DNA of 64,000 nucleotides from a virus: IMG/VR virus record IMGVR_UViG_3300010885_070871, positions 16,923-80,922 of that record, one strand, 5' to 3'. The translations under genes were made by a program, and so were the position numbers. Below, in pieces: positions 1 to 16,966 of the stretch. The number at the start of each line of letters is the position of its first letter. Position 1 is the first letter of the stretch. The notes under the pieces are model-generated. The model searched no databases, was not told where the DNA came from, and worked only from the letters and a program-made list of their open reading frames with translations.

Positions 1-866
1 TGACATTCATTAAAAAAATAGACGAATTTAATACTGTAAACGAAGGTTTTTTTAAATCCTTGTTTGGTGGTATAGGAGATATTTTTAAATCGAAAAAATC
101 TAAATTATCATCGATACTTAAACAAATAGGTAGGGTTAAAAATGAAGAGGCTGATGAGCTTATAAAGATAGAAAAAGAGATAGCTGAATTACCAAAAGAA
201 AATACACCAGAATACAGGTATTACTCTACTAATCTAAATAGACAATCTAGGATTCTTAAATCAATGAAAGCGGTTGAAGTGAATAACTTAATAAAAGAAG
301 CAGAGGAAATAATAGATGAGGATCCAAAACTTTACGCATACTTCTCTTCCGAATTTGCAAAAATAAACAAAGAAAGTAAAGAGAAATACATTAAAGGTGT
401 TTCTACTTATCTTAATAAGAGTGATTTAAAGGATTTAGTTGACGAGTTTGAAAGATTAGTAAAGGATGCCAATTATAGATCCAAATATTACGAAGATTAT
501 CCAGAACAGGAAATAGGAGATATTTACCCAGAGGTAAAAGAGAATATTAAAAATTTTATAGATATGAGTCCTCAACAATCTAAAGACATTCTTGATAATT
601 TAGATTATAAGGAATTAAAAAACCTTTATTCAGGAATTAAAGAATTTCAGTTTGATATGGAACAGATATTGGATAACAAAATATCATCTATAAGAATACA
701 AATTAAAAAATCTGAAAAAGAAGGAGATAGTGGTATAATACCATATCTTAGAAGGAAAGAGTCTTTAATTAAATATGAATACAAAGAGTATATAAATTTA
801 ATAAAGTCTAAAACTGCTTTAATAGAAAAAGAAATGAAAAATAAAAGATATGTCTCTAATAATTAA
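1..866 (+). CDS. Putative internal head or accessory virion protein (first base of start codon outside window)
   Basis: The reading frame is open from base 3 and bases 1-2 are TG, so the start codon is very probably an ATG whose A lies one base before the window. That gives about 288 residues. The product is lysine- and glutamate-rich, highly charged and predicted mostly helical or coiled-coil, with no recognised enzyme motif. Its N-terminus (FIKKIDEFNTVNEG) fits the short hydrophobic-x-x-F motif shared by several genes in the first 9 kb, with a possible V-N-E/G cleavage step. It overlaps the next gene by 17 bases, suggesting coupled expression. An internal head protein is inferred from the motif only. 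An internal TTG at position 60 is a less likely start, because it would remove the shared N-terminal motif. Confidence 0.6.
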   Translation, partial: TFIKKIDEFNTVNEGFFKSLFGGIGDIFKSKKSKLSSILKQIGRVKNEEADELIKIEKEIAELPKENTPEYRYYSTNLNRQSRILKSMKAVEVNNLIKEAEEIIDEDPKLYAYFSSEFAKINKESKEKYIKGVSTYLNKSDLKDLVDEFERLVKDANYRSKYYEDYPEQEIGDIYPEVKENIKNFIDMSPQQSKDILDNLDYKELKNLYSGIKEFQFDMEQILDNKISSIRIQIKKSEKEGDSGIIPYLRRKESLIKYEYKEYINLIKSKTALIEKEMKNKRYVSNN

Positions 867-1149
867 ACTAGATAATTTTTCTAAAGTATCCGAACAACAA
901 AAAACACCTGAACAAAAGACAAAGGATCTACAGGCGAAGGCTAATATAGATAAAGAGCTTTTAGAAATAAATAAAAGAATCTCAGATATAGACCTTGCAA
1001 TAGCAAATCTTGCTAAAAGGGAAAAAGACGGATCTCTTTCTAGGAGTGAATCTTTTAAGCAACAAGCAGTAGAGCTTCAGAAAAAAGTAGCAGAATATTC
1101 AAAAAAATCTGTTTCTCTTAAAAAAATGGAAGACCTAACTAAAAAATAA
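850..1149 (+). CDS. Small charged coiled-coil protein, putative accessory virion protein
   Basis: The 99-residue product is rich in Lys, Glu and Gln. Residues 25-95 look like one long amphipathic coiled coil, with leucine/isoleucine spacing in the SDIDLAIANLAKREK stretch and onward. The N-terminus, MSLIIKLDNFSKVSEQ, aligns with the neighbouring protein (I-K-x-[IL]-D-x-F, then V-[NS]-E), so the two look like members of the same targeted set. It starts inside the end of the previous gene. No Shine-Dalgarno sequence precedes the ATG. I do not recognise a family; a coiled-coil structural or scaffold-like role is inferred. Confidence 0.6.
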   Translation: MSLIIKLDNFSKVSEQQKTPEQKTKDLQAKANIDKELLEINKRISDIDLAIANLAKREKDGSLSRSESFKQQAVELQKKVAEYSKKSVSLKKMEDLTKK

Positions 1150-1158
1150 GATATATAA
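1149..1158 (+). promoter_or_regulatory. TATATA-box promoter candidate (AGATATATAA)
   Basis: One of a set of TGATATATAG-like boxes found just before genes in this window. It begins at the last base of the previous stop codon and ends 3 bases before the ATG at 1162. AT-rich background makes a single copy weak evidence. Confidence 0.3.
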
Positions 1159-1161
1159 AAA

Positions 1162-1692
1162 ATGAAAAAAGAATTTTACAATCCACTTTTTGAATCATTA
1201 TTAGATACAGCCAAAGAATATAAAACTGTATATAATTATAGAATTCACGAGGAAGCAAACGAAAAATTTAAAGACAAGGATCAGGCTTTAAAATATTTTA
1301 AGATGATATTTGATTCATGGGGTAATGCAGTAATAGCATTTACTAAAAGCTGTTTAATACCTGATGTAAAAAGTGAAATCTCTAAACAGGTTTCAGAAAA
1401 TATTATAAAACTTGGTACTTCATCTAATTCTTCTTTAGATAACATAATAAAAGTATTAAAAGAAAGCTCAGATGTTATATCAGAAAAAATTTCTGGTCAA
1501 AATAAAAGCGAAACAATTAAAATTGTTTACAAGAATTTTGAAGAGGGTGTTGGTTCTTTAGAAGAAGCTTATACTGCTTATAAAGAAAGAGCAGGTAGTA
1601 TGTTAACAGATAGTGATTTATTAGCTAAAATAAATTCACATATCCAGAGTTACGTAGAACAGATTAAAAAAAATCAAGAGAAGAAAAAATAA
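1162..1692 (+). CDS. Hypothetical helical protein
   Basis: The 176-residue product appears all-helical, with acidic and lysine-rich segments and a lysine-rich tail. No membrane segment, signal peptide or catalytic motif is visible, and I do not recognise the family. The ATG follows an AGATATATAA box by 3 bases. It sits between two genes that carry the capsid-targeting-like motif. Its own N-terminus (MKKEFYNPLFESLLDTAKE) is only loosely similar, with aromatic-x-x-F/L spacing and an ES step. It could be another internal virion protein or an unrelated accessory protein. Confidence 0.55.
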   Translation: MKKEFYNPLFESLLDTAKEYKTVYNYRIHEEANEKFKDKDQALKYFKMIFDSWGNAVIAFTKSCLIPDVKSEISKQVSENIIKLGTSSNSSLDNIIKVLKESSDVISEKISGQNKSETIKIVYKNFEEGVGSLEEAYTAYKERAGSMLTDSDLLAKINSHIQSYVEQIKKNQEKKK

Positions 1693-1699
1693 ATTAAAC

Positions 1700-2746
1700 A
1701 TGAAAAATTTAAGTAACACATATTCAAAGCTTACAGAAAGCATGAAATCTTCTGACAGAAAAGAAATTTTTGAAGATAAAGACGAGAGAGAGAAAAGAAG
1801 GGAAGAAAGAAGAAAAAAAAGATTGGAAAAAGGATTCGGAGATAAAGAACAAGGTGGGGAAGACGATGAATTCAATCTTAAATCTTTTAAAAAAGCAGTA
1901 GATGAATTGAGAGGTCAATCCTATGCTCAAGAAGATGATTGTGCTTTACAGATTAAATTAAACGGTCCTGGAAAAAAATCAGCAGAAGAGAATGCTTCTA
2001 AATTTCGTTCTATTTCACAAAGATGTTCCAAGCTTCTAGGAGAAATTGCATATCGAATTAATAAAGAAGGAAAAAGATTAGAATCAACTGATGAAGAGGA
2101 TATGACCTTAATAAAGTCGTATAGAGAAACATATAATGATTTAGTAGAAGATCTTAAAGAAACAATAAAAAGCTACAATAAACAAAGTGCAGATTCGGTT
2201 AAAGGTTTTTTTGATAATCAAAAATTTAAAGATATTGCAGGAAAGGTAGAAGAAGCCGATGCAAAATTTAAAAAAGGTATAAATGAATTAATAGATAAAA
2301 CAACTGATATTCAATTAGAATATGGACAAGGGTTATCTGTTTTATCCCCTACAGCAGCACCAGCAGGAGCAGCAGCACCAGCAGGAACAGCAGATACTGG
2401 AGCAACTGACATTAAGATAAAAGAACCAGTTAAAAAAGGTACAGGTTCAAAATCTAATCCTGATGAAACGGTTAAAAAAGTTCAGGAGCTTATTAATAAA
2501 AAATTCAAGAACGATAAAGAGGTAACAAAAACCGCAGAATGGGAAAAATTTTCTAAATATGGTGCAGATGGAGCTTTTGGTAATACAACAGGAAATTTAA
2601 TTATATTAATAAAGAAAAAATTTAATTTACCTGCAAAAAATTCTCAAATCACACAAGAATTCATTGACAAACTTATGGAAATAAAAGAATCTAAATTTAG
2701 TGGGTCATTACTTTCTTTTGAGGACTTTTTAAGCAACAGAAAATAA
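1700..2746 (+). CDS. Putative virion-associated protein with peptidoglycan-binding-like domain
   Basis: The 348-residue protein has four visible parts. Residues 1-60 are a highly charged basic and acidic segment beginning MKNLSNTYSKLTESMKSS, with an L-T-E/S step. Residues about 60-215 are a helical region. An Ala/Pro/Gly/Thr linker follows near residues 213-233. Residues about 250-330 resemble a peptidoglycan-binding type 1 fold (VQELINKKF, then GADGAFGNTTGNLI and KKKFNLPAKN). The extreme C-terminus, SLLSFEDFLSNRK, repeats the motif found at the N-terminus of other proteins in this region. Cell-wall binding is inferred from the fold-like pattern; packaging in the virion is inferred from the terminal motif. 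Confidence 0.6.
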   Translation: MKNLSNTYSKLTESMKSSDRKEIFEDKDEREKRREERRKKRLEKGFGDKEQGGEDDEFNLKSFKKAVDELRGQSYAQEDDCALQIKLNGPGKKSAEENASKFRSISQRCSKLLGEIAYRINKEGKRLESTDEEDMTLIKSYRETYNDLVEDLKETIKSYNKQSADSVKGFFDNQKFKDIAGKVEEADAKFKKGINELIDKTTDIQLEYGQGLSVLSPTAAPAGAAAPAGTADTGATDIKIKEPVKKGTGSKSNPDETVKKVQELINKKFKNDKEVTKTAEWEKFSKYGADGAFGNTTGNLIILIKKKFNLPAKNSQITQEFIDKLMEIKESKFSGSLLSFEDFLSNRK

Positions 2747-2775
2747 AATAATTCGGAATTTTTAATTAATTTAGG

Positions 2776-2783
2776 GGTATAAT
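2776..2783 (+). promoter_or_regulatory. Pribnow-like box before the kinase/amidotransferase pair
   Basis: GGTATAAT sits 13 bases before the ATG at 2797, in the 50-base gap that opens the kinase and asparagine-synthase pair. No convincing upstream element is visible. The assignment is tentative. Confidence 0.28.
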
Positions 2784-2796
2784 CAAATAAAAGGTT

Positions 2797-3333
2797 ATGC
2801 CCCTTATTATTATCGAAGGTCCAAGAAAGTCAGGTAAATCACATCTTATAGCACAACAGGAAACTTTTCCTGTTTTTAAATTTGATTTTAATAATAATTT
2901 TAGCACTTGGGATTTTAAAAAAAATTCAGAAAAAGTTCATTGGTTTGGTTTAGGTAAGGAAGTTATGCTTCATGAATTGGATGCAACTGGTATGCTTCCT
3001 AAAATGATAGTTGATAGAGGTATACTAACCAATTCAGTTTGGGGAGTTTTCCAAAAAAGAATAACAGTAGAAGAAGCTAAAAAGGATCTTATTAATTTTA
3101 ATAAAAGAAATTTTTTCCGTGGTACCAAAATAATCTTAATAGAAGGGTTATCTGAAGAAAAAAGAACTAAAGACATTTGGGACGAAGATGATAAGAGAAG
3201 AGAGGAAGAATATTCTCTTTTTTCATCGTTTTCTAGCTTGCTACGAGACTTTGGGGTGGAGGTCCATGTTTTCCATAATAACTTCGATTTGGACTCTGTA
3301 ATACGATTTAAAACAATTATTAAAGAATTATAA
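2797..3333 (+). CDS. P-loop kinase, nucleoside/nucleotide kinase-like
   Basis: The 178-residue protein begins with a hydrophobic strand and a Walker A loop, GPRKSGKS (residues 8-15). A VDRG segment with a following serine (D73, R74, S80) resembles the DR-x-x-S element of thymidylate and deoxynucleoside kinases, where the Asp-Arg pair contacts the substrate. A later strand, KIILIEG, completes a Rossmann-like core. The length fits small deoxynucleoside or nucleotide kinases. The substrate cannot be read from the sequence. It is one base upstream of the asparagine-synthase-like gene, so the two are probably cotranscribed. A polynucleotide-kinase-type role is an alternative. Confidence 0.65.
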   Translation: MPLIIIEGPRKSGKSHLIAQQETFPVFKFDFNNNFSTWDFKKNSEKVHWFGLGKEVMLHELDATGMLPKMIVDRGILTNSVWGVFQKRITVEEAKKDLINFNKRNFFRGTKIILIEGLSEEKRTKDIWDEDDKRREEEYSLFSSFSSLLRDFGVEVHVFHNNFDLDSVIRFKTIIKEL

Positions 3334-3334
3334 A

Positions 3335-4753
3335 ATGTGTGGAATTTTAGTAGCAAAAAGACCTTCTGATGAAAGAATAGAATCAATATCGCATAGAGGA
3401 ATCGAACATAATATTATTTACAAAGACGATCTTTGTTTAATACATCACAGATTACCTATTCAAACATTAGATGGTGATAATTGGTCACAACCAGTTTCTA
3501 TAGGAGAAGATAGATGGCTTTTGTTCAATGGTGAAATATTTAACTATCCTGGGGATTTTGAATCAGATACCGCTTATTTACAAAACCTATTTAAAACTTT
3601 TAATTTTAGTGGGATAGGAATGCTACAAGCAATATATGAACCACATATTGTTTCTTGGGATGGTTTTTGGTCCATAGTTTTAGTAGATACTAAGAAAAGG
3701 GAAGTTTATGCTTTTACTGATCCATTAGGAAAAAAATGCCTTTATAAAAACGATAAAGGTGAAGTTTGTTCTGAAATAAAAGGATTAATAGAAAAAGATG
3801 AAATAAATCCTATAGATCATTCATTTTTTAGTGGTGTTATAAAATTTGGATATCTTACAACTAATCAAACACCGTACTTAAATATTAAAAAATTAGAACC
3901 AAATAAATTTCACCATTGGAGTTTAGATCATTCAATAAAAATGGATGTTTCAGATCCATATTACAATTTTAATGTATTTGATGCTGGACTAGTTACATAC
4001 GATGATAGAATGGATTGGCTTTGGAATAAATTAGAGGATTCTGTACAATCAAGACTAATCTCTAAAAACTATCCAACTTCTTTATTGCTTTCAGGCGGAT
4101 TAGATTCATCGATAATAGCAGGACTTCTCCTTAAGTTAAATGCAGACGTTAGTTTTTATTCTATATCAAACGGAGAAGATGAACACTACATAAAAGATTG
4201 TGAAAAATATTGGGAAATAGAATCAAAAAGACTTAAATATGATATTGATCTAGAAAGTGAAAAAGGTAAGCAGGAGTTAATAGAAATATACAAAAAATGG
4301 AACGAATCACCCGTAGATATGGGAAGTGTTATTCCGCAATATCATCTTTTTGATGCTATAAAGAAAGGAACAAATACTAGAATAGTAATATCAGGAGACG
4401 GTGCAGACGAATTATTTGGTGGTTACAGAAGAATAAACGAATATGATTCACAACAATCTGATATATTCCATGAATTAACTTCATATCATTTACCTAGACT
4501 GGATAAGATGTCAATGGCTCATACACTAGAACTTAGAAGTCCTTTTCTAAATCATGATATAGTTAGATTTGCTATAAATCTTCCGTTTGAAGAAAGAAAG
4601 AATAAGAAGATTTTAAAAGATACTTTTAGCGGATTAATTCCAGATTCTATTATAGAAAGAAAAAAATTGGCTCTTAAAAATACTAAAATAATTGAGGATC
4701 AAATAGAATATAGAAAAAAAATAGTTGAATTATTCCTTGTTTCCGTTTCCTAA
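3335..4753 (+). CDS. Asparagine synthase-like glutamine amidotransferase
   Basis: The 472-residue protein matches the class II glutamine amidotransferase plus AMP-forming synthetase architecture of AsnB. Cys2 directly follows the initiator Met and is the expected glutaminase nucleophile. Supporting glutaminase residues include the HHRLPI segment (37-42) and NGEIFN (65-70). The synthetase half has the PP-loop SGGLDSS (253-259), SGDGADELFGGYRR, and the C-terminal LDKMSMAHTLELRSPFL signature. It is shorter than typical AsnB (about 550 residues). Phage and polysaccharide homologues often amidate substrates other than aspartate, so the true acceptor is uncertain. It follows the P-loop kinase by one base and its 3' end overlaps the opposite-strand ATP-grasp gene by 24 bases. 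Confidence 0.85.
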   Translation: MCGILVAKRPSDERIESISHRGIEHNIIYKDDLCLIHHRLPIQTLDGDNWSQPVSIGEDRWLLFNGEIFNYPGDFESDTAYLQNLFKTFNFSGIGMLQAIYEPHIVSWDGFWSIVLVDTKKREVYAFTDPLGKKCLYKNDKGEVCSEIKGLIEKDEINPIDHSFFSGVIKFGYLTTNQTPYLNIKKLEPNKFHHWSLDHSIKMDVSDPYYNFNVFDAGLVTYDDRMDWLWNKLEDSVQSRLISKNYPTSLLLSGGLDSSIIAGLLLKLNADVSFYSISNGEDEHYIKDCEKYWEIESKRLKYDIDLESEKGKQELIEIYKKWNESPVDMGSVIPQYHLFDAIKKGTNTRIVISGDGADELFGGYRRINEYDSQQSDIFHELTSYHLPRLDKMSMAHTLELRSPFLNHDIVRFAINLPFEERKNKKILKDTFSGLIPDSIIERKKLALKNTKIIEDQIEYRKKIVELFLVSVS

Positions 4754-6211
4754 AGTTACTTCTACACCAGCTTCAGCTTTTCCTTTTGCTTCTTTTGGAG
4801 AATATCCTTCAGGTCTATCAGTCAATACAAAATCTTCAGATGGATCTACAACTAAACCTGCAGCACTTAAGAAATCTCTATTTAGAAGTAATGGTGTACT
4901 TTTTTCAGTTCTGTCTACTAAAGAGAATTTAACTTTTTTATAAACTATACCATTGAAATTAACATCTAAGTTAACAACAGATCTTTTGTGTATTTTTTCA
5001 CCAACCTCTGCTTTAGATTGACCAACAATTTTATTTTTAAATTCCTGTCCTCCTAAAGTCCAATTTACATGCCCGTCAATTTCTTCAAAACTGTCAGCAT
5101 GTAGAGAACAAGATGTTGCTCCGTTTCCTGTATCTAATTTTCCTACAAATGTACCAACCCCTTGAACTGTAACTAGTTCTCTAAACCCTGTAACTTTCTT
5201 AGGTTTAACCCAGTTTTTCTTATCTAAAAGAAAATCTACTATCACATCAGTAACTGGTATTCCTGTAGTTTTTTCTATTCCTGTTGTACCAGGTGAAGCA
5301 TTAACTTCTAGAACATAGGGTTTTTCAGATTTCTTATCAACGATTATATCTACACCACACCAGAGACATCCAGTAGCTTTAGCAGATTCTATTGCTATTC
5401 TTTCTATATAATCAGGGAGTTCAACATTTTCTGTTTCACCACCTAAAGAGTAGTTAGTCCTAAAATCCCCCTCTATTTTGATTCTTTTCATCGCTGCGAT
5501 GACTTTATAGTTGCGGCCAGACATATTATCGCTTTCAGCAATAACATGTATTCTTAAGTCATATTCAGCTTCAATTTTTTCTTGTAGAACTATCTCTGTT
5601 CCTGGTGATAAATGCCATATTGCTTGTAAGGTAGAAATAAGAGACGGTCTTGAATCTATCATGAATACTCCAATACCTTTAGTTCCTGAGATAAATTTAC
5701 AAACTACTGGATATTCACCACCTACTTCTTCTACTGCTTTATCTATATCATTTTCTGATGATATTAAAGATGTTTTAGGTGTAGGTATATTAGAAAGCTG
5801 TAATTTTCTTGTTGTTTCTAATTTATCCTCACATATATTTACAGATTCATATGAATTTACACAAGGAAAACCTAGATCCTCCATTTTCTTAAAGAACCCT
5901 TTTGCTGCATTATTTTTTATAGCAGACCTTCTAGTTAATACTATGGTTCTATCTAAATATATTTCTTTTGGCTTACTTCCACCACTTGATATTAGAAATG
6001 TTCCTTTTGTTGTTTTTTGAATAGATCCTTTTTCTGTGTCTATTATTATAGATCTTATTCCTTTGTCCTCACAAATTTTAGTTAACTTGTCAGTTGTTGG
6101 AGCGTTTTTTAGACTCTTACCTAATTTAGTAGTCAGGACAACAACAGTTAAAGGATTTTCTTTTCCTTTAATTCCTTTAAATATAAATTTTTCAAATAAA
6201 TAATCGCTCAT
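4730..6211 (-). CDS. RimK-like ATP-grasp ligase fused to a RimB-like retropepsin domain
   Basis: The 493-residue protein has two domains. Residues about 1-335 form a RimK-type ATP-grasp ligase. Visible elements include ICEDKLETTRKL (127-138), the ATP-binding K172, E211, R220 (YDLRIHVIA), D288 and the metal-binding E302/N304 (YVLEVNASPG). Residues about 345-465 resemble the retropepsin-like domain of RimB (PF05618-type), with catalytic DTGN at 360-363 and a second strand ending LLLNRDFL. RimK adds glutamates to the C-terminus of ribosomal protein bS6 in gammaproteobacteria, and RimB-like proteins are linked to the same system. A fused ligase and protease suggests a reversible peptide tag. The substrate is unknown; the adjacent acidic protein and host bS6 are candidates. 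A TGATATATAG box lies 3 bases before the ATG. Confidence 0.85.
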   Translation of the reverse strand: MSDYLFEKFIFKGIKGKENPLTVVVLTTKLGKSLKNAPTTDKLTKICEDKGIRSIIIDTEKGSIQKTTKGTFLISSGGSKPKEIYLDRTIVLTRRSAIKNNAAKGFFKKMEDLGFPCVNSYESVNICEDKLETTRKLQLSNIPTPKTSLISSENDIDKAVEEVGGEYPVVCKFISGTKGIGVFMIDSRPSLISTLQAIWHLSPGTEIVLQEKIEAEYDLRIHVIAESDNMSGRNYKVIAAMKRIKIEGDFRTNYSLGGETENVELPDYIERIAIESAKATGCLWCGVDIIVDKKSEKPYVLEVNASPGTTGIEKTTGIPVTDVIVDFLLDKKNWVKPKKVTGFRELVTVQGVGTFVGKLDTGNGATSCSLHADSFEEIDGHVNWTLGGQEFKNKIVGQSKAEVGEKIHKRSVVNLDVNFNGIVYKKVKFSLVDRTEKSTPLLLNRDFLSAAGLVVDPSEDFVLTDRPEGYSPKEAKGKAEAGVEVTLGNGNKE

Positions 6212-6214
6212 GTT

Positions 6215-6224
6215 CTATATATCA
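6215..6224 (-). promoter_or_regulatory. TGATATATAG promoter candidate for the ATP-grasp gene
   Basis: On the minus strand the sequence is TGATATATAG, ending 3 bases before the ATG at 6211. The identical 10-mer occurs at 7994-8003 before another gene. A terminator separates this gene from the acidic gene upstream, so an own promoter is expected here. Confidence 0.45.
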
Positions 6225-6234
6225 GGAATTCACT

Positions 6235-6259
6235 AAAAAGCACAGAAAATCTGGGCTTT
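6235..6259 (-). terminator. Intrinsic terminator after the acidic repeat gene
   Basis: Read on the minus strand, a 10-base stem (AAAGCCCAGA / TCTGTGCTTT, one mismatch) with a 3-base loop is followed by a T-run (TTTTT overlapping the stem base). It lies 8 bases beyond the stop codon of the acidic gene. On the + strand the same hairpin is followed by GATCTTTTT, so it may work in both directions. Confidence 0.6.
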
Positions 6260-6266
6260 GATCTTT

Positions 6267-6968
6267 TTAGTTAAAAAAATTATCAAATCTTATGACTCTT
6301 TGGGTTTCTTCCTCTTTTTCTTCTGTATTTTGTTCTAAGTCAGACTCATCTTCTTCTTCGGTATCATCATCGTCATCGTCATCATCGTCATCTTCCTCCA
6401 TTTCTACCTTTGTTTGATATTCATCATCATTTTCACCTTTCATATCTCCACCTTCTATATCTTCCTCCTCGTCGTCCTCATCTTCTTCTTGAGTATCTTC
6501 TTCCTCATCGTCCTCGTCTTCTTCTTGAGTATCTTCTTCCTCGTCGTTGTCCTCTTCTTGAGTATCTTCTTCGTCGTCCTCATCTTCTTCTTGAGTATCT
6601 TCTTCCTCTTTAGAATCGTCCTCTTCTTGAGTATCTTCTTCCTCATCGTCCTCATCTTCTTCTTGAGTATCTTCTTCCTCTTTAGAATCGTCCTCTTCTT
6701 CTTGAGTATCTTCTTCCTCATCGTCCTCATCTTCTTCTTGAGTATCTTCTTCCTCTTTAGAATCGTCCTCTTCTTCTTGAGTATCTTCTTCCTCTTTAGA
6801 ATCGTCCTCTTCTTCTTGAGTATCTTCTTCCTCGTCGGCGTCTTCTTCCTCTTCTTTTTCCTCTTCCTCTTCTTCTTCGCCTATTTTAGCTCCTTTCCAA
6901 AGCTCATTCTCTTTAAAATTTACGTTTCTTTTTGAGAATTCCTCAAATGATAAAATACTATTTTTCAT
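6267..6968 (-). CDS. Extremely acidic repeat protein with capsid-targeting-like N-terminus
   Basis: Of 233 residues, most from position 30 on are Glu or Asp. About ten copies of an EEEDTQEE core alternate with DDSKE or DEDDEE spacers, and a run of ten Asp follows near the C-terminus. The final segment (RVIRFDNFFN) and the N-terminus (KNSILSFEEFSKRN) are the only non-acidic parts. The N-terminus closely matches the shared motif of this region. T4 gp67, a prohead core protein, also has a strongly acidic tail, so a scaffold or core role is plausible. DNA mimicry, or charge neutralisation of basic proteins, are alternatives. A terminator follows, and the RimK-like ligase gene comes next on the same strand. 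Confidence 0.7.
   Translation of the reverse strand: MKNSILSFEEFSKRNVNFKENELWKGAKIGEEEEEEEKEEEEDADEEEDTQEEEDDSKEEEDTQEEEDDSKEEEDTQEEDEDDEEEDTQEEEDDSKEEEDTQEEDEDDEEEDTQEEDDSKEEEDTQEEDEDDEEDTQEEDNDEEEDTQEEDEDDEEEDTQEEDEDDEEEDIEGGDMKGENDDEYQTKVEMEEDDDDDDDDDDTEEEDESDLEQNTEEKEEETQRVIRFDNFFN
6440..6850. repeat. In-frame tandem repeats encoding the acidic repeat region
   Basis: The + strand shows repeated TCTTCTTGAGTATCTTC-type units with variable CTC/ATC spacers, all multiples of three. They encode the Glu/Asp/Thr/Gln repeats of the minus-strand gene. The near-identical units suggest recent expansion by slippage or unequal recombination. Long open frames on the other strand here are a by-product of the repeats. 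Confidence 0.8.
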
Positions 6969-6982
6969 GTTTTTATTATTTT

Positions 6983-7234
6983 TTATTCTGTTATTCCTAT
7001 AGAAGCTGCACTTCCACTTTCTGTTGCTCCAAATCCTGGATAGTCTATTTTAGACGTTCCTTTAAAAACTGCATCTTTATAACCCACATAATCATAAGCA
7101 GCTTCTGGAGTTATTTTATGTAGCCCTGTTCTATCCTCTTTGCTAAGATTAGCAGGATTCCAAGGATCCCCTATAACTTTTAAAAAATCTTTATAGGACA
7201 ATATTTCTCTTTTTTTTACGTTTTTCTGATTCAT
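6983..7234 (-). CDS. Small protein with capsid-targeting-like N-terminus
   Basis: The 83-residue product starts MNQKNVKKREILSYKDFL, fitting the I-L-x-[FY]-x-x-F motif seen in its neighbours. The rest contains a Pro/Asn/Gly-rich segment and a small-residue C-terminus (GATESGSAASIGITE) with no recognised fold. It is third-to-last in a minus-strand run: the 236-residue gene, this gene, the acidic gene, then the ATP-grasp gene. The ATG sits only 5 bases after the upstream stop, so it is probably cotranscribed. The function is unknown; packaging in the head is inferred from the motif. Confidence 0.6.
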   Translation of the reverse strand: MNQKNVKKREILSYKDFLKVIGDPWNPANLSKEDRTGLHKITPEAAYDYVGYKDAVFKGTSKIDYPGFGATESGSAASIGITE

Positions 7235-7239
7235 TTTTT

Positions 7240-7950
7240 TTACATATTTTGGAATATACTAGAAAGTCCTGTTTTCATAGCTTTTGCATATATTCCAGGA
7301 TCTTTAGTTTCTGCTTTTTCTATTTCAGTAGCTAATTTTTGTTTATCTTGTGGACTAAAACTTTTACCAGATATTATATCTCCTAGACTAAAACCACATA
7401 TTTTATCAGCTATCATTGCCTCTACTTTATTCATGAAACTAGTATCATTCACGTAATTAGTTAAAGCCTCTCTTAAACTAGCTGCTAGTGTTCCTCCTAA
7501 TCCAGTATTCATATCCATTCTTAAACCTAATTTAGGTAAAAGATAATCTATTCCTCTTTCTTCGATTGTTTCTGCTAATCCTTCAACAATTGCTCTTGAC
7601 CAATTTTTACAAGAACCTTTACCAAAATATTTACCTATTTGTGTAAAGTGTACTCCTTCTATAACGTTTCTAACTAATTGGTAAAAAAATGTTGGTTTAT
7701 TCTCGTCGTCATATGGTTCAATTCCTAATTTTTCTGCTGCCCAATCTATTATATAGTCTTTAAAGGTATCAGTAAAACCTCCCCCAAGTGATCCAAAAAA
7801 TGAAGTAAATATATTTTCGTTTATTTGGGCTTCTGTTAATCCTTCAGATTTTAATCTTAAATATTCACTCTCCAAAAGCTGAAATTTTTCCTGATGATCT
7901 ACGTTAGACTTAGATTCAGATATAAATTGAGAATATCTTTGTATTTTCAT
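7240..7950 (-). CDS. Putative internal head protein with T4-like capsid-targeting N-terminus
   Basis: The 236-residue protein begins MKIQRYSQFISESKSN. This matches the T4 internal-protein targeting peptide, which as I recall it reads MKTYQEFIAEA, in the aromatic-x-x-F-I-x-E pattern. The I-S-E/S step would suit a gp21-type prohead protease. The mature part has a Gly-rich hydrophobic stretch (FFGSLGGGFTDTF) and a helical body with no recognised enzyme signature. I chose the ATG at 7950 rather than a TTG at 7977, because the TTG lies inside a TGATATATAC promoter-like box and would hide the targeting motif. It is first in the minus-strand run of four genes. Confidence 0.65.
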   Translation of the reverse strand: MKIQRYSQFISESKSNVDHQEKFQLLESEYLRLKSEGLTEAQINENIFTSFFGSLGGGFTDTFKDYIIDWAAEKLGIEPYDDENKPTFFYQLVRNVIEGVHFTQIGKYFGKGSCKNWSRAIVEGLAETIEERGIDYLLPKLGLRMDMNTGLGGTLAASLREALTNYVNDTSFMNKVEAMIADKICGFSLGDIISGKSFSPQDKQKLATEIEKAETKDPGIYAKAMKTGLSSIFQNM

Positions 7951-7966
7951 TACAACACTTTTTAAT

Positions 7967-7976
7967 GTATATATCA
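7967..7976 (-). promoter_or_regulatory. TGATATATAC promoter candidate, minus strand
   Basis: The box reads TGATATATAC on the minus strand, 16 bases before the ATG at 7950. It forms a divergent pair with the + strand box at 7994-8003, in the only gap between two oppositely oriented genes. This arrangement supports a promoter role. Confidence 0.48.
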
Positions 7977-7993
7977 ATTCTGCTTATAAATTC

Positions 7994-8003
7994 TGATATA
8001 TAG
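7994..8003 (+). promoter_or_regulatory. TGATATATAG promoter candidate, plus strand
   Basis: TGATATATAG ends 6 bases before the ATG at 8010. The same 10-mer precedes the ATP-grasp gene on the other strand. It is the + strand half of a divergent promoter pair. Confidence 0.5.
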
Positions 8004-8009
8004 TATAAG

Positions 8010-8417
8010 ATGTCAAGAATTCCAAAAATAGATAATTATCAAAAAGATTTTCCAAATGTATATGGAATAGAATCTGATTTTTGTTATGCTGTAGTTGAAG
8101 ACTTTACAGCAGAAGCATTAATAGAGTATAAAGAATCTGGTACTATATCAGGGATTAAATGTTATGAACCTTCTTGGAATTTAATAAATATACTTGATGG
8201 TGACTATTTGATGTCTAGTAAAAATGGATTATATGTTTTATTAAAGGATTTTGATGGATTAATAGAGATAAGACCACAAAAAAATATAGGTTCACAAAAA
8301 CCATCATTTGATTTTATAAATAAAGAATGCCTCGTAAAAATAGGGAAAGATTCTGTTAATTCAAAAATTATGTCCTTAGAGGAAAGAACAAAAATTATAC
8401 CTATAAGAGGAATATGA
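8010..8417 (+). CDS. Hypothetical protein
   Basis: The 135-residue product looks alpha/beta, with short strands such as GLYVLLKDFDGLIEIRP. No catalytic motif, membrane segment or known domain is visible. The ATG is preceded by a TGATATATAG box with 6 bases between. Its stop overlaps the next ATG by 4 bases, so it is the first gene of a two-gene unit with the 184-residue protein. It lacks the capsid-targeting-like motif of the neighbours. I do not recognise it. Confidence 0.55.
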   Translation: MSRIPKIDNYQKDFPNVYGIESDFCYAVVEDFTAEALIEYKESGTISGIKCYEPSWNLINILDGDYLMSSKNGLYVLLKDFDGLIEIRPQKNIGSQKPSFDFINKECLVKIGKDSVNSKIMSLEERTKIIPIRGI

Positions 8418-8968
8418 AAAAAATATTAGATTTTAACCAGTTTTCTTTATCAGAAAGCAGCGCAGCAGGCAACAGGGAACAAACACACCATATTCCTTTT
8501 TCTTACACATCTCATGATCCTAAAGAGGGATATAGCAGTAAAAGTTTTATATCAGATTTAAAAGCTATATTTATAGATAAACCAGAAATTAAAAAAGAAA
8601 TAATAGAATTTTTATCATCTAAAGTTGGGATAACAAGAATAGACGATTTAGAAAAAAGACCTATATCTTTTATAGCAAAATTAATTCCAGAGATAGAAAG
8701 AATAATAGATGCAGGTGAATACGAGCCAGAGGTAACGATGCCAGGTGGTGCACTATTATTTATTAGAAACAAAAAATTCAGTGATGGTACAGGAGCTGAT
8801 TTTTATATTAATAAAAAAGGAACTAAAATAGAGGTTGTGACGGAAGACAATTTAGGAAAAGAAAAAGTAATGTCTTTTGAAATTGATAGTTTTCCTTTTG
8901 ATAGATTTGAATTTAAAGAGGAAGAAAAAGAAGAATTAAATGCTCTTAGAAAAGCAAAAGGAGTTTAA
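8414..8968 (+). CDS. Putative internal head protein with capsid-targeting-like N-terminus
   Basis: The 184-residue protein opens MKKILDFNQFSLSESSAAGN, one of the clearest copies of the I-L-x-F-x-x-F motif, followed by L-S-E/S as a possible prohead protease cleavage step. The remainder is mixed helix and strand, with an acidic and lysine-rich C-terminal third (FKEEEKEELNALRKAKGV), and no enzyme motif I recognise. Translation is probably coupled to the preceding gene through an ATGA-type overlap. Its stop codon overlaps the stop of the convergent minus-strand gene by 4 bases. The packaging role is inferred from the N-terminus. Confidence 0.62.
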   Translation: MKKILDFNQFSLSESSAAGNREQTHHIPFSYTSHDPKEGYSSKSFISDLKAIFIDKPEIKKEIIEFLSSKVGITRIDDLEKRPISFIAKLIPEIERIIDAGEYEPEVTMPGGALLFIRNKKFSDGTGADFYINKKGTKIEVVTEDNLGKEKVMSFEIDSFPFDRFEFKEEEKEELNALRKAKGV

Positions 8969-9844: not shown

Positions 9845-10468
9845 ATGAGCCCCCAATTTTTAGTTATAGCATATTACACCAAAAACACAAGCTACCAAAA
9901 CTTAGCTAACAGTTTAAAACAATCTTTAGACAGATTCACAATCCCCAATTTTATAAAACCAATAGAAGATCTAGGCTCATGGGAAAAGAACACACATCAT
10001 AAAGCATATTTCATTAAAGAGTGTCTGGAGACAAAACAAGAAAACCTACTTTATGTTGACGTAGATGCTGTTTTTAGAAGGTACCCAGATCTTATACCAA
10101 ATCTTGATTGTGATATAGCATACAGAACTGAAAACTTTAGATGGAGAGCAGATGAAGCTTTGTCGGGAACCATATTCTTAAAAAATAACGATAATATTAA
10201 AAAGATGGTTAATCGTTGGATCGAGCTAAACCAAGCTACTCCTGCTGAAAGAATGAAACCAGAAACTTGGGAACAGAAAAATATGCAAAGGGCACAGAGA
10301 GAATTTCAGGATTTGACTTATTATAACTTTCCTCCTGAATATACTTTTATTACAGACCACACTAGAAGGATGTATCCTAATATAAGTCCTGTTGTTGAAC
10401 ATTTCCAAGAATCAAGAAATGTTCATAAATCCCCGAATCAAAATCCAGGTTTTAGGCTAAGAAGATAG
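9845..10468 (+). CDS. DxD glycosyltransferase (nucleotide-diphospho-sugar transferase-like)
   Basis: The 207-residue protein resembles small GT-A fold transferases. It has an N-terminal strand (FLVIAYYTKNTSYQ), a DLGSWEKNTHHKAYFI segment, and the putative metal/nucleotide-sugar motif LLYVDVDAVF. The same order (YYTKN, DLGS-x-x-K-x-T, then D-x-D) appears in the two later paralogues at 11204 and 11844, so the three form one family in this genome. No membrane anchor or signal peptide is visible, implying cytosolic action. It opens the island and is one base from the next gene. Donor and acceptor are unknown. Confidence 0.7.
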   Translation: MSPQFLVIAYYTKNTSYQNLANSLKQSLDRFTIPNFIKPIEDLGSWEKNTHHKAYFIKECLETKQENLLYVDVDAVFRRYPDLIPNLDCDIAYRTENFRWRADEALSGTIFLKNNDNIKKMVNRWIELNQATPAERMKPETWEQKNMQRAQREFQDLTYYNFPPEYTFITDHTRRMYPNISPVVEHFQESRNVHKSPNQNPGFRLRR

Positions 10469-10469
10469 T

Positions 10470-11207
10470 ATGATTTTAAAACATGCTGTTCTAAGCTCAA
10501 ACTCGAACCCAGAATATCTTGATTTTTGGCCTTATGTTGCTAAGGCATGGAGAGATGTTATAGGATTAAATCCTGTACTTCTTTATATTGATAGTTCAGA
10601 ACCCCCTGAGTGGGTATATGAACATGGTATTGTTTTTCATCTAGAATCTATAAATGAATGGTCAATTGCTCAACAAGCACAATCAATAAGATTCTGGGGA
10701 GCACGTATATTGAAGGAACCTTTTATAATCTCAGATATGGATATGTTACCTATATCTAGAGATTATTATGAGAATGGGGTTAAAGATATAGGAGAAAGAG
10801 GTATAGTTTCTTATAGCTCTGATATTATCAAATACCGATGGTATAGAACTAATCCACAATATCCTATGTGCTATCTTGCAGGTGATCCTAAATCGTTTGT
10901 AGATCTTCTAGATCTGAATGATCTTGACCATAAATCTTTTTTGAGAAGACTTATGAGAATGAATATAAGATTTGGAACAGACCAAAAGTTTTTTTATAAT
11001 CAATCACTAATTAAGAAGAATGTGACTATAAAACATTTAGAAAGAGGTTGGATAGAAGAAAAATATGCTACACGAAGATTGGATAAAGCAATCTGGCCAA
11101 AAACGGACTATTTAGCACAAGAATATATAGACTGCCATTTACCTAGACCTTATAATAGTAATAAAGGAATTTGTGATAATCTTTTTGATAAACTTAATTT
11201 AAAATGA
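10470..11207 (+). CDS. Glycosyltransferase-like protein with DMD motif
   Basis: The 245-residue protein contains PFIISDMDMLPISRDYY, a D-x-D element in the setting usual for GT-A transferases. Upstream is a Gln/Arg-rich helix (SIAQQAQSIRFWGARIL), and downstream a DQKFFYNQSL segment typical of GT8-like or related folds. It is not closely similar to the flanking YYTKN-type transferases. The gene begins one base after the previous stop and overlaps the following ATG by 4 bases, so it belongs to one transcription unit. The linked sugar is not identifiable. Confidence 0.6.
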   Translation: MILKHAVLSSNSNPEYLDFWPYVAKAWRDVIGLNPVLLYIDSSEPPEWVYEHGIVFHLESINEWSIAQQAQSIRFWGARILKEPFIISDMDMLPISRDYYENGVKDIGERGIVSYSSDIIKYRWYRTNPQYPMCYLAGDPKSFVDLLDLNDLDHKSFLRRLMRMNIRFGTDQKFFYNQSLIKKNVTIKHLERGWIEEKYATRRLDKAIWPKTDYLAQEYIDCHLPRPYNSNKGICDNLFDKLNLK

Positions 11208-11842
11208 ATAACCCACTTTTTATATCATACTACACAAAAAACGACTACTATCAAGAATGTTCTAGAAATTTAAAATCAATGTGTGATTCTCTAGGTATTG
11301 AGATAGAAATAGCAGAAGTTCGTGATTTGGGTTCATATTGGAAAAATACATTATATAAACCAACCTATATTTTAAATAAAATAAAGGAGAAAAAAGTAGA
11401 TTTGATATGGATAGATGTAGATACCAAAATAAAAAAATATCCAGATTGCTTTAAAAAATGGAATACAGATCTTCTTTTTTCTAGTCATACTGGAGATCTT
11501 CAAGGTATAAAAGCTTCACCTATAGGTTTTAAGTATAATGATAGATGTATAAATTTTCTAGAAGAATGGTCCAAAAAATGTAATGAAAAAATAGAAAAAA
11601 ATGACATAGACATGGATCACGATGTTTTAAAGTATGAAATAATTTCTGATTTTTGTGGTAAGATATCTTTAGATGTTATGAAAGACGGATTTAACTTTAA
11701 AGATTTTAGTGATGGAGAAGTAATAGACAATGGTATATCTAGAGGAATATCTAAACATCAAGAGGTAAAAATAGTTATGAATAAAAACAGAAAAAGATCG
11801 TATGATTTTGATAAAACATCTATACAAAAATTTATTATCTAA
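11204..11842 (+). CDS. DxD glycosyltransferase, paralogue of the 9845 gene
   Basis: The 212-residue protein repeats the layout of the first island gene: FISYYTKNDYYQ near the N-terminus, RDLGSYWKNTLYKPTYIL, then LIWIDVDTKI with the D-x-D pair. A later DMDHDVLKYE segment corresponds to DHDALKH in the 11844 protein. Similarity across the three suggests duplication followed by divergence, perhaps to give different acceptors. It overlaps the upstream gene by 4 bases. Catalysis is inferred from the motif; no specific sugar can be assigned. Confidence 0.68.
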   Translation: MNNPLFISYYTKNDYYQECSRNLKSMCDSLGIEIEIAEVRDLGSYWKNTLYKPTYILNKIKEKKVDLIWIDVDTKIKKYPDCFKKWNTDLLFSSHTGDLQGIKASPIGFKYNDRCINFLEEWSKKCNEKIEKNDIDMDHDVLKYEIISDFCGKISLDVMKDGFNFKDFSDGEVIDNGISRGISKHQEVKIVMNKNRKRSYDFDKTSIQKFII

Positions 11843-11843
11843 T

Positions 11844-12698
11844 ATGAGAAAGATTGTAAGAAGATTTCTTTTTAGCGATGAAAGAAACAATAAAATAACA
11901 AAAGGAAGTAATTCTAAAAATATAAACGATACAAAATCAGAAGAGGAAAGAAAAATAAAAGAAGAGGAAGAAATAAAAAAAATAGAAGATATGTTATTTA
12001 ATACATTACCAAATTCTAAAAATAGAGAATTAGTAACAAAATGGGAAAGATTAACTGGAAAAGAAACAATATTTGTTTGTTTTATATCAGATCCTCCAGA
12101 AAGTAATTTCTATACAACTAGAATATTGTCTTTGATTGATAAAATCAATTCTTTAGGATATGATTATATTATACACAATTATAAGTCAGATAGAAATTAT
12201 TTTCAGAACTGCTGTTATAAACCCGTTTTTATAAATGATATTCTTAAAGCTAATGAAAAAAATTTAGTTTGGATAGATGGTGACACAAATTTAAAAAACG
12301 ATATAGGAGATTTTATTGATACTGAAAAAGATTTTGATATAGGACTAGTTACATATAATGGGGATATAAACGGATTTATTGCTTCTCCTTTATTTATAAG
12401 AAACACCACTACAGGAAATCAATTAATAGAATCCTGGATGGATCACTGTACAAGCATGGTAGAATCTGGAAATTGTGAACTGGACCACGATGCTCTAAAG
12501 CATGTAACAATTCCTAAATTTAGAAACAGTTTAAAAATAAAATTAAACTGGAATAACACAAACGATCTTCATAAAGGAATGATATTAGAAAATGTAAATT
12601 CTGATGTTCCCTATAAAAGGGAGATATTAAGAAAAATGACTTTTGTTAATCAAAATAGACCGTTTAATTTTAAAAACAACGATTTTATAATAGTATAG
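11844..12698 (+). CDS. DxD glycosyltransferase, third paralogue with charged N-terminal extension
   Basis: I place the start at the ATG at 11844, one base after the previous stop, rather than 42 bases upstream inside that gene. The 284-residue product has a basic then Lys/Glu-rich N-terminal extension of about 65 residues. The transferase core follows: FVCFISDPPESNFYTTRI, YFQNCCYKPVFI, LVWIDGDTNL (D-x-D), NGFIASPLF and ELDHDALKH. These blocks align in order with the 11204 protein. The extension may mediate protein contacts. No membrane segment is seen. It is followed one base later by the fucosyltransferase-like gene. Confidence 0.68.
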   Translation: MRKIVRRFLFSDERNNKITKGSNSKNINDTKSEEERKIKEEEEIKKIEDMLFNTLPNSKNRELVTKWERLTGKETIFVCFISDPPESNFYTTRILSLIDKINSLGYDYIIHNYKSDRNYFQNCCYKPVFINDILKANEKNLVWIDGDTNLKNDIGDFIDTEKDFDIGLVTYNGDINGFIASPLFIRNTTTGNQLIESWMDHCTSMVESGNCELDHDALKHVTIPKFRNSLKIKLNWNNTNDLHKGMILENVNSDVPYKREILRKMTFVNQNRPFNFKNNDFIIV

Positions 12699-12699
12699 T

Positions 12700-13542
12700 A
12701 TGAATAAATTAAAAGCATCATGGGCACCGTTCCCTCAAGAATATTCTTCTTGTTCAAGTTTAAAACCTAAAAATTTCGAATGGTCAAAAACAGATGGTAT
12801 TGCTAATGTGTACATTGATAATAATATACTGAACCATAGAGGTCCAGCACACAGAAACTTTGGATGGTTTTGTGAATCCTCTGAGATTATTCCTGATCTT
12901 AAAAAGCATCTTCTAAATAATCTAGGAACACTAAGAGTTCATTTTCAAAATATATTTACTTGTGATTCTGAAATAATAAACAGAGATCCCTCGTTCTTTT
13001 TATTTAATCCACCAGGATCAAATCTACCATGGACAAATCCTAATTCTTTTGGAATACATCAAAAAAGTAAATTAGTCTCTATGGTTTGTAGTTCTAAAGA
13101 TATGACAACAGGACATAAATTAAGATTAAGTGTTGCTTCAAAAATAAAAGATAAAGTTGATCTTTTTGGAGGAGCACACGGAAGTCCTAAATCTGGAAGT
13201 GGAATAGGTCCATCAGGTGATTGGTGGAGATCTAGAGATGAATCATTAGCTCCTTATATGTTTTCTGTTGTATTTGAAAATTCATCTTATGACAACTATT
13301 ACACTGAAAAAATAACAGATTGTTTTGCCAATGGAACTATTCCTATCTATTGGGGAGATTCTAAAATATGCGAAACATTTGATTGTAACGGAATAATAAA
13401 ATGGAATGAAAATTTTGATTTTAATTCATTAACCGAAGAATTATATAAAAGTAAATTAGATTCTATTACAAAAAACTTCGAAATTGTAAAAAAATTAGAT
13501 TCATCAGACGATCTACTATTTAATAAAATAAAAAACAGATGA
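12700..13542 (+). CDS. GT10-family fucosyltransferase
   Basis: The 280-residue protein carries the signature of alpha-1,3/1,4-fucosyltransferases (GT10). FSVVFENSSYDNYYTEKI (188-205) is followed by DCFANGTIPIYWG (207-219), matching the conserved F-E-N-S, Y-x-T-E-K and G-x-[IV]-P-[IV]-x-x-G elements that bind GDP-fucose. The N-terminal half would be the acceptor-binding lobe. It is about the length of the bacterial enzymes without their C-terminal heptad repeats. A GDP-L-fucose synthase occurs 4 kb downstream in the same island, giving a donor source. It likely fucosylates a glycan built by the neighbouring transferases; the acceptor is unknown. Confidence 0.85.
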   Translation: MNKLKASWAPFPQEYSSCSSLKPKNFEWSKTDGIANVYIDNNILNHRGPAHRNFGWFCESSEIIPDLKKHLLNNLGTLRVHFQNIFTCDSEIINRDPSFFLFNPPGSNLPWTNPNSFGIHQKSKLVSMVCSSKDMTTGHKLRLSVASKIKDKVDLFGGAHGSPKSGSGIGPSGDWWRSRDESLAPYMFSVVFENSSYDNYYTEKITDCFANGTIPIYWGDSKICETFDCNGIIKWNENFDFNSLTEELYKSKLDSITKNFEIVKKLDSSDDLLFNKIKNR

Positions 13543-14261
13543 ATAAAATAAACTTGATTGCTGCTTCTAGAGAAAGATCTATAAGAATGAGTGAAGTTAT
13601 TCTTAAATGGTATCATAGTGCATCCAACCCAGAGAATATAGAGTTTATTATTTCTATTGATACTACAGATCATATGGTGGAAAGATACAAAAGAAATTTT
13701 AGAAATCTAGAACTTCAATATGGTGTAAAAATAAAATTAGTTATAAACGATAACAAGAACACTGTACAAGCAATAAACGCAGCTAAACCTCATATAAATG
13801 GTGATATTATTTTTATAATATCTGATGATACTGATTGTTTTCAAGGATGGGATAAAGCAATATTGGATGTAGTAAAAGATAAAAATGATTACTATATAAT
13901 TAAAACTAACGATGGAATAGGAAAAGATTTAATTACTATGCCTATATTCTCTAGAAAATATTTAGATTCTAAGGATTACATATATTATCCTAAATATGAG
14001 CATATGTTTTGTGATACTGAATTGACATGCGTTGCACATTTAGAAGGATGTATAATAGATGCTAGTAATATAACTTTTAAACATTTACATTACACTCAGG
14101 GATATCACGAAAAGGATCATAATGATGTAAAAAACCAGTTTACTTTTTATACAGGTATGGAAATATTTAAAGAAAGATTAGGCTTAAATTTTGAAATTCC
14201 AAAAGAAAAACAAAAAGGGGAAATCCCAAAAAATATAATAGAATATATAAACAACAACTAA
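13539..14261 (+). CDS. GT-A glycosyltransferase (GT2-like)
   Basis: The 240-residue product begins INLIAASRERSIRM, a GT2-like first strand. It continues with FIISIDTTD and NTVQAINAAKPHINGDIIF, then IISDDTDCFQGW, whose D-D-x-D supplies the nucleotide-sugar/metal site. No transmembrane helix is visible. Its ATG overlaps the stop of the fucosyltransferase gene by 4 bases, so the two are translationally coupled. Donor sugar is unknown. Assignment to the fold is fairly safe, while membership in GT2 itself is inferred. Confidence 0.68.
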   Translation: MNKINLIAASRERSIRMSEVILKWYHSASNPENIEFIISIDTTDHMVERYKRNFRNLELQYGVKIKLVINDNKNTVQAINAAKPHINGDIIFIISDDTDCFQGWDKAILDVVKDKNDYYIIKTNDGIGKDLITMPIFSRKYLDSKDYIYYPKYEHMFCDTELTCVAHLEGCIIDASNITFKHLHYTQGYHEKDHNDVKNQFTFYTGMEIFKERLGLNFEIPKEKQKGEIPKNIIEYINNN

Positions 14262-14274
14262 AAAAATAAAAAAA

Positions 14275-14850
14275 ATGCAAAATTCATCAGGAGCTTTCAA
14301 TGAAGATCATTTTATGTCTAAAAAATTTTTAGATATAAAAAACAAATACACTTTAGATACTGTAATAGAAACAGGTACCTATCACGGAGTAACCACAGAA
14401 TGGTTTGCTCATAATTTTGATAAGGTATACACAGTTGAGTGTAGTCAACCTTATTATGAAGAGGCTCAAAAAAGAATAGGTTCTTATTCTAATGTACATA
14501 GCTATTTAAAAGACAGCCCAGTTTTTCTAAAAGAAATATTAAGCACTATTCAGGATAATAAAACAATTATTTTTTTAGATGCACATTGGTACACTAATCC
14601 TGTTTTAAATGAGCTAGATGCTATAAAAGAATCTGGTAAAAAACCAATAATAGCAATTCATGATTTTATGGTACCAGATCATCCAGAATTCGGATACGAC
14701 ATTTATCCTGACCAAAATATAGTTTATAATTGGGAATGGATTCAAGGCAAAATAGAATCTATATACGGAAAAAGTGGATATACTAAAGAATATAATAACG
14801 AAGCAACAGGAGCTATGAGAGGTTGTATATTCTTATTTCCAAATAAATAA
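14275..14850 (+). CDS. Class I SAM-dependent methyltransferase-like protein
   Basis: The 191-residue protein has the class I methyltransferase core. DTVIETGTYHGVTTEWFA supplies strand 1 and a G-x-G loop. KVYTVECSQPYYEEA supplies the acidic residue after strand 2. TIIFLDAHWY corresponds to strand 4, and PIIAIHDFMVPD to strand 5. The acceptor is unknown. In this position, within a sugar-transfer cluster, O-methylation of a glycan or nucleotide sugar is likely. It is separated from its neighbours by short A-rich gaps with no Shine-Dalgarno sequence. Confidence 0.65.
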   Translation: MQNSSGAFNEDHFMSKKFLDIKNKYTLDTVIETGTYHGVTTEWFAHNFDKVYTVECSQPYYEEAQKRIGSYSNVHSYLKDSPVFLKEILSTIQDNKTIIFLDAHWYTNPVLNELDAIKESGKKPIIAIHDFMVPDHPEFGYDIYPDQNIVYNWEWIQGKIESIYGKSGYTKEYNNEATGAMRGCIFLFPNK

Positions 14851-14871
14851 ATAATAAATAATAAATAAAAT

Positions 14872-15558
14872 ATGAGCACAAACAATACACTAAGAAGCAT
14901 AGGATCAAAATACGGAACTGATAAAGTATCCCACGGATTTTGCGAAGTATACGAAGAAAAATTTAATAATATTAGAGAATCTTCAAAAAATATTTTAGAA
15001 ATAGGGGTTTTCTTTGGAGCTAGTATTTTAATGTGGAGAGACTATTTTTCTAATTCTACGATTCATGGATTTGATACCTTTGAAGGACTACAAGGAAATG
15101 GTCACAGATTTCAAAATTCAGACAAATTTCTTAATGAATGGAAAAATGATGTAAATCTACAAAACAGAATTGAACTTTATAAGTACGATCAAGGGAAAGA
15201 AAGCGATCTTATTTCATTTATATCAGATATTAAAAAGAAAAACATATCATTTGATGTAATAATTGAAGACGGTTCACATCTAATGGTAGATCAACAATTA
15301 GATCTAAAATATCTATTTTCTACAGTCAAATCTGGAGGATATTATGTTATTGAGGATATACACAGTTCATTGGGTGCTTATGATGTGATGAGTGATTTTT
15401 CAAATACTACACTAACAATGATTAATAGATATAAAGAAAAAAAAGAATTACATTCTATTTATGTAGATTTAAGTGACATTAAACCTTTAATTAAAAATAT
15501 GGAATTATTCACAGTAGAATCTACTGGAAGTATGACATGTATAATAGAAAAAATATAA
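14872..15558 (+). CDS. Class I SAM methyltransferase (Methyltransf_24 / CmcI-like)
   Basis: The 228-residue product shows ILEIGVFFGASILMW (SAM-binding loop), TIHGFDTFEGLQGNG after strand 2, and FDVIIEDGSHLMVDQQLDL, the D-G-S-H block typical of CmcI/macrocin-O-methyltransferase relatives. GGYYVIEDIH follows. Members of this family methylate sugar hydroxyls in antibiotics and polysaccharides. The N-terminal SKYGTDKVSHGFCEVYE segment is common in glycan-island methyltransferases. Its stop codon TAA shares a base with the next ATG, so expression of the two is coupled. Confidence 0.75.
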   Translation: MSTNNTLRSIGSKYGTDKVSHGFCEVYEEKFNNIRESSKNILEIGVFFGASILMWRDYFSNSTIHGFDTFEGLQGNGHRFQNSDKFLNEWKNDVNLQNRIELYKYDQGKESDLISFISDIKKKNISFDVIIEDGSHLMVDQQLDLKYLFSTVKSGGYYVIEDIHSSLGAYDVMSDFSNTTLTMINRYKEKKELHSIYVDLSDIKPLIKNMELFTVESTGSMTCIIEKI

Positions 15559-16244: not shown

Positions 16245-16259
16245 AAATAAAATGATAAA

Positions 16260-16946: not shown

Positions 16947-16966
16947 AAAATATAACTTATAAAATT

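Follow-up and report, generated by a model that had tools for sequence, protein, structure and literature searches.

The window, by which we mean the whole 64,000-nucleotide stretch of DNA analysed here (positions 16923-80922 of an 80,922-base virus record; G+C 31%), begins inside a head module. Directly upstream lies the gene of a Gp23-type major capsid protein (E=9e-39), which itself follows a gp21-type protease gene. The annotated relatives of this capsid protein belong chiefly to phages of Bacteroidota (PTm1, pT24, Lak and MaF61), and further ones are found in Sphingomonas phage PAU, which has a host from another group, and in metagenomic huge phages. The comparative set consists of 80 IMG/VR loci with capsid proteins 65-90% identical. 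Between the head and tail modules, some 12 kb (window 9845-22002) are taken up by glycosyltransferase-like, methyltransferase-like and sugar-nucleotide genes. Further along, the protein encoded at window 28072-30876 ends in a degenerate repeat array (N-P-G-x-D-L-G-L-P-x-R-Q-Y), and a PhoH-like ATPase (PF02562, E=1e-63) is encoded on the opposite strand within the tail module (window 49746-50417, minus).

The initial annotation had claimed that several otherwise unrelated proteins in the first 9 kb share a short peptide like that of the T4 internal head proteins, and had read them as a possible cargo set packaged in the capsid and injected with the DNA. It was right in substance. All seven of its motif peptides are present at their positions (Table 1), and with their first 35 residues left out the proteins have no mutual similarity at E<=1e-3, the sole exception being the 1..866 protein, which has a remote connection, via intermediates, to the protein on its left. 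The mature parts of tagged proteins fall into different Pfam families; a PHROG scan (E<=0.001-0.01) of the scanned window members matched no family. An eighth tagged member, a nucleotidyltransferase, lies upstream of the window, out of sight of the initial annotation.

Table 1. Features of the locus. Positions are those of the window unless another source is named; a slash marks the predicted cut.
Feature	Position	Strand	Tag or core copy	Remarks
Head-module protein, 288 aa	1..866	+	carries FIKKIDEFNTVNEG; tag MTFIKKIDEFNTVNE/G, codons to ~44	ATG 1 base upstream of window (record 16922); predicted cut VNE/GFFKSLFGG
99-aa protein	850..1149	+	MSLIIKLDNFSKVSE/QQ at 850-894	tagged
C-terminal core copy	2708..2731	+	LLSFEDFL	in 348-aa protein 1700-2746; no cut site
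RimK-like ATP-grasp enzyme (PF08443, E=4e-37)	4730..6211	-	LFEKFIFKG, at most a degenerate tag	within tagged cluster
Very acidic protein, 62% D/E	6267..6968	-	ILSFEEF N-terminal, VIRFDNFF C-terminal	no cut site
83-aa protein	6983..7234	-	EILSYKDFLKV, residues 10-20	core conserved; no cut site
All-helical protein	7240..7950	-	MKIQRYSQFISES from ATG at 7950; tag MKIQRYSQFISE/S (7950-7915)	tagged
184-aa protein	8414..8968	+	MKKILDFNQFSLSE/S at 8414-8455	tagged
Nucleotidyltransferase	L002 8706-9461		starts MKNILNFYSFVNEQ	upstream of window
Epimerase	17654-19357
SIS domain	19347-19928
DAHP/KDO8P-synthase family	19894-20691

Tagged proteins and the head protease

The core occurs in two classes. In class A, it is followed by an [ILV]-x-E cut site, with Val allowed at P3; this is seen in the 1..866 protein, in those starting at 850, 7950 and 8414 and in the upstream nucleotidyltransferase. 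The idea that cargo is freed after the Glu thus fits four of the peptides first listed, as well as the nucleotidyltransferase, and fails for the minus-strand proteins starting at 6968 and 7234 and for the C-terminus of the 1700 protein, where there is no cut site. In class A, orthologues keep the tag. In the 1..866 family, which the initial clustering had lumped with a neighbour family and which was separated by best hit, the core and [ILVMF]xE are present in 47/47 distinct orthologue N-termini while the rest of the N-terminus varies (e.g., MKLKRLESFSINE/G, MKIYRFEEFVSE/G and MSLLKFNEWDQLNE/A). Core and cut site are kept in all 13 orthologue N-termini of the 850..1149 protein, and in 24/24 members of a family occupying the equivalent position in a sister clade (L033_007). 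An alignment of the 7950 family (32 sequences, down to ~20% identity) has only three invariant columns, one of them the core Phe; this protein also has a second conserved candidate cut after residue 45 (INE/NIFTSFFG), its Asn-Glu being at least 90% conserved, and its predicted structure is unusably poor (pLDDT 66.5). The 8414..8968 protein has an orthologue in G004 that starts MRRIFNFNQFVNE/SSAAGN. The predicted mature N-termini are often Gly/Phe-rich and amphipathic (GFFKSLFGG, NIFTSFFGSLGGG, GFWDALFG; window 45-75 and 7815-7780, with examples in G004, G007 and G003), and are perhaps a second signal.

In class B, the core is present without the N-terminal arrangement of core plus cut site. 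These proteins are most simply read as docked structural parts of the prohead core, and they are more likely to be structural or assembly components than released cargo. Orthologues of the 6983..7234 protein have the core in 32/32 cases and the cut site in 0/32. The very acidic protein begins with ILSFEEF in eight orthologues, most of which also end in VIRFDxF. Its likeness to T4 gp67 is one of composition; acidic prohead-core proteins of the gp67 type are fragmented at L/I-x-E sites. The C-terminal copy at 2708..2731 recurs as an identical motif at the matching residue in a single close relative only (L007). An 849-aa head-module protein, invisible to the initial annotation, has an internal core copy (SSVLSFEDFYSVIEES) that is kept in close relatives.

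A gp21-like prohead protease had been named as something to look for in the genome, and there is indeed a Peptidase_S77 (PF03420; record 12100-12450, E=2.8e-11, and E=4e-10 in a further match), its gene lying 4.7 kb ahead of the window, with gp21-type proteases present in 7/7 relatives. A 685-aa protein has this protease as its N-terminal region, and the remainder is a repeat scaffold with one [LI]xE site per 14 residues, repeated 12-15 times in full-length orthologues. Judged by this pattern, the scaffold fused to the protease is made to be cut. T4 likewise has a Peptidase_S77 protease (gp21) and a scaffold rich in L/I-x-E sites (gp22), but here the two are a single polypeptide, as annotated in PTm1 too, and the sites are regularly spaced at 14 residues. 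The capsid protein has an invariant HSLNE/S (75/75), which is likely to be its maturation cut, and its N-terminus carries a core and site resembling the tag in 41/41 sequences.

Distribution of the tag among proteins and phages

The tag was captured in an 11-position position-weight model built from five tagged families in this group of phages, its tightest positions being 3 (F/Y/I/V/L) and 6 (F/W). Held-out training families rank 4, 16, 11, 6 and 4 of 74; two are thus only 11th and 16th, and several of the families that outrank them are themselves tagged (8414, 6968, L033_007). At a score >=9 within the first 40 residues, 7/69 ORFs of the 80.9-kb record are tagged vs 0.7 expected from shuffled N-termini (20 shuffles, maximum 3), and four larger relatives have 11, 16, 17 and 28 tagged ORFs vs 1.4-2.7 expected, these counts taking in the training families. 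The top-scoring N-terminus of the record is that of the 8414..8968 protein, although it is outside the training set. A strict form, [IVL]L[SDNE][FYW][EKDN][DEQN]F, devised after the window had been inspected, occurs five times in the record's 26,247 residues vs ~0.04 expected, every time within the head module. Core plus cut site is found in 115/1839 N-termini vs 41/14373 internal stretches (odds ratio 23, the orthologues being non-independent).

The initial annotation had also proposed a search for further N-terminal motifs, and in relatives tagged N-termini are found genome-wide. They include those of an adenylate kinase (PF00406, E=4e-39), a RimK-like ATP-grasp enzyme (E=8e-34), a MoxR-like AAA ATPase (E=6e-9) and an SLT lytic transglycosylase (E=2e-6), so that the tag appears as an add-on to unrelated enzymes. 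Adenylate kinase shows this best: extensions ahead of its P-loop domain (MENIVKSFSGFLNE, METLKYFNQFLNE, MERIKTFEDFALNE, MKNILDFSSFLFE) carry the hydrophobic-x-x-[FW] core with LNE or LFE in six orthologues and are otherwise variable, a seventh having VKE and an eighth no tag. For the ATP-grasp enzyme, a relative's orthologue, 42% identical to the window copy, is fully tagged (MSGRKILNFFSFLNE/A). Behind its ATP-grasp domain, the window copy has a stretch that matches, below threshold, a putative ATP-dependent zinc protease domain (PF05618, E=1.6e-5). Its gene adjoins that of the very acidic protein, and one might guess that the enzyme modifies this neighbour.

The nucleotidyltransferase matches phrog_36119 (E=1e-40), and most copies have the catalytic G-S...S-D-L-D motif. 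In the structural model, residues 1-15 are disordered (pLDDT <50) and precede a confident domain. A sequence search gave no solved-structure match, and the best fold match is spectinomycin adenylyltransferase AAD(9) (E=1.5e-4, low TM-score). The fold comes closest, though weakly, to AAD/ANT-type adenylyltransferases, and the assignment is kept at the superfamily level. Two copies (L060 4468-5247 and L066 3377-4147) have lost S-D-L-D (SPLEIEIV, SPLEVEIV) and kept the tag (NFDDFLGE, NFDEFLGE). In a 735-kb phage whose genome is among the largest known for phages (LR756501, positions 535-2190), the domain sits in a longer open frame with a tag-like start, MLKYNSFIKEE.

In the relatives compared outside the clade, the tag is not enriched. 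The whole genome of PTm1 has 2 tagged ORFs vs 3.7 expected, despite its protease-scaffold fusion and related capsid protein, and the capsid regions of LR756500, Lak-B1 and MaF61 have no tags above expectation; LR756501 has single examples only. The claim is thus confined to the clade plus T4. The negatives from PTm1, LR756500, Lak-B1 and MaF61 also mean that the model does more than detect AT-rich phage N-termini.

Comparison with T4 and other packaging systems

When applied to T4, which it had never seen in training, the model ranks IPIII, IPII and IPI 2nd, 3rd and 5th of 267 ORFs; by simple counting, the chance of three named proteins falling in the top five is ~3 in a million. The first rank goes to gp61.1 (NC_000866 18966-19130; MKTFKEFIKED) and marks it as a candidate for packaging. 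For IPIII of T4, the ten N-terminal residues are enough for targeting, and the protease gp21 cleaves after L/I-X-E (PMC9026906). Within the IPIII peptide MKTYQEFIAE, residues 4 and 7 (Y, F) serve targeting and residues 8 and 10 (I, E) processing, while Asp at position 10 blocks cutting and leaves targeting intact (PMC9026906). The positions conserved here, the two aromatic ones and the [ILV]xE, are those that count in this mutagenesis, and the no-cut class matches the uncut Asp variant, which bears out the proposed likeness to T4: near the N-terminus, an aromatic or hydrophobic residue and a Phe stand three apart.

The tagged proteins thus share with IPI, IPII and IPIII the N-terminal place of the tag, a [Y/F]-x-x-F core, an [IL]-x-E cut, unrelated mature domains and a gp21-type protease in the genome. 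They differ in being more numerous per genome (11-28 in the larger relatives), with several recognisable enzymes among them, in allowing Val at P3, and in including a no-cut class as well as internal, C-terminal and both-end copies; the phages themselves are only distant relatives of T4. The idea of a head-carried enzyme is familiar from T4 Alt, a packaged ADP-ribosyltransferase processed at both ends (PMC9026906). Alt ranks 219 under the model, and its N-terminus does not match the motif, which therefore does not cover all packaged proteins. The ejection proteins of phiKZ and SPN3US and the CTS of P1 DarB also have an N-terminal signal drawing the protein into the head, and SPN3US shares the cleavage after Glu. 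SPN3US propeptides are mostly >100 residues long and cut at A-x-E (PMC5694885), and in the P1 Dar N-termini a shared motif was not found (PMC9024508).

Proposed role of the tag

The motif, its spread across unrelated proteins, the protease and the pattern of sites are established at the sequence level. Docking, cutting, packaging and injection of the tagged proteins are what the analogy with T4 leads us to expect, and we consider it very probable that the shared peptide is a T4-type capsid-targeting sequence that works in this manner, delivery being its probable last step. The core, hydrophobic-x-x-[FYIL]-x-x-[F/W], would dock the protein onto the prohead core as it grows. Once the prohead is assembled, its protease, fused to the scaffold and encoded beside the capsid gene, would cleave after [ILV]-x-E, releasing the mature protein within the head, while the scaffold would be chopped at its 14-residue repeats. 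The released proteins would remain with the DNA and probably be delivered into the next host. The no-cut proteins (6267-6968, 6983-7234, and those with the internal copy of the 849-aa protein and the C-terminal copy of the 1700-2746 protein) would more likely serve prohead-core structure or assembly.

This role in assembly could be extended to the tagged proteins as a whole. The tag would then be a prohead-core docking motif, and most of its bearers assembly factors that are fragmented and expelled rather than kept and injected, as T4 gp67 and gp68 are. Genes of several members do lie to either side of those for the protease, scaffold and capsid protein, class B lacks the cut site, and the acidic 6267-6968 protein resembles gp67 in composition; but the tagged adenylate kinase, RimK-like ATP-grasp enzyme, MoxR-like ATPase and lytic transglycosylase are encoded far from the head module, and we consider this account unlikely. 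Much less probable is that the peptide serves another purpose, for example membrane attachment, degradation or sorting inside the infected cell. A short N-terminal amphipathic peptide is compatible with many roles, and some predicted mature N-termini are amphipathic too (GFFKSLFGGIGDIF and similar), but the blind test that put the T4 internal proteins near the top, the fit to T4 mutagenesis and an [ILV]xE site that is the expected target of the adjacent protease type all speak against it. That AT-rich, lysine-rich N-termini merely resemble each other by chance is hardly credible: the motif is short and of low complexity, but shuffled N-termini and internal windows give ~4-12x fewer matches, AT-rich PTm1 is at or below expectation, and the core is kept in orthologues while its flanks change.

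Beyond the capsid-targeting reading itself, the core may be a general docking code of the prohead interior, with class A as released cargo and class B cross-linking the core, and with the tag copying the scaffold-binding N-terminus of the capsid protein (EIYExWxPIIES here, AELLNKWKPLLEGEG in T4 gp23). We hold this extension tentatively, as rather less likely than not to be right. If it were true, large phages would arrive in the cell with a starter kit of enzymes.

What emerges is a T4-type capsid-targeting system, as read from its sequences, with an enlarged cargo list and in large phages whose clade is remote from T4. In a partial literature search by title and abstract, descriptions of such tags in Bacteroidota phages were not found, nor, in the same partial literature, was a no-cut class of docking motifs. 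Proteins carried in the head and injected are known for very few phages, and pure virions are normally required to find them. If the tag reads as it does in T4, the packaged proteins of uncultured phages could be listed from sequence alone. The list would then include an adenylate kinase, an ATP-grasp ligase, an AAA ATPase, a nucleotidyltransferase and a transglycosylase, which would act at the onset of infection, and the tag would be a portable means of loading proteins into these heads.
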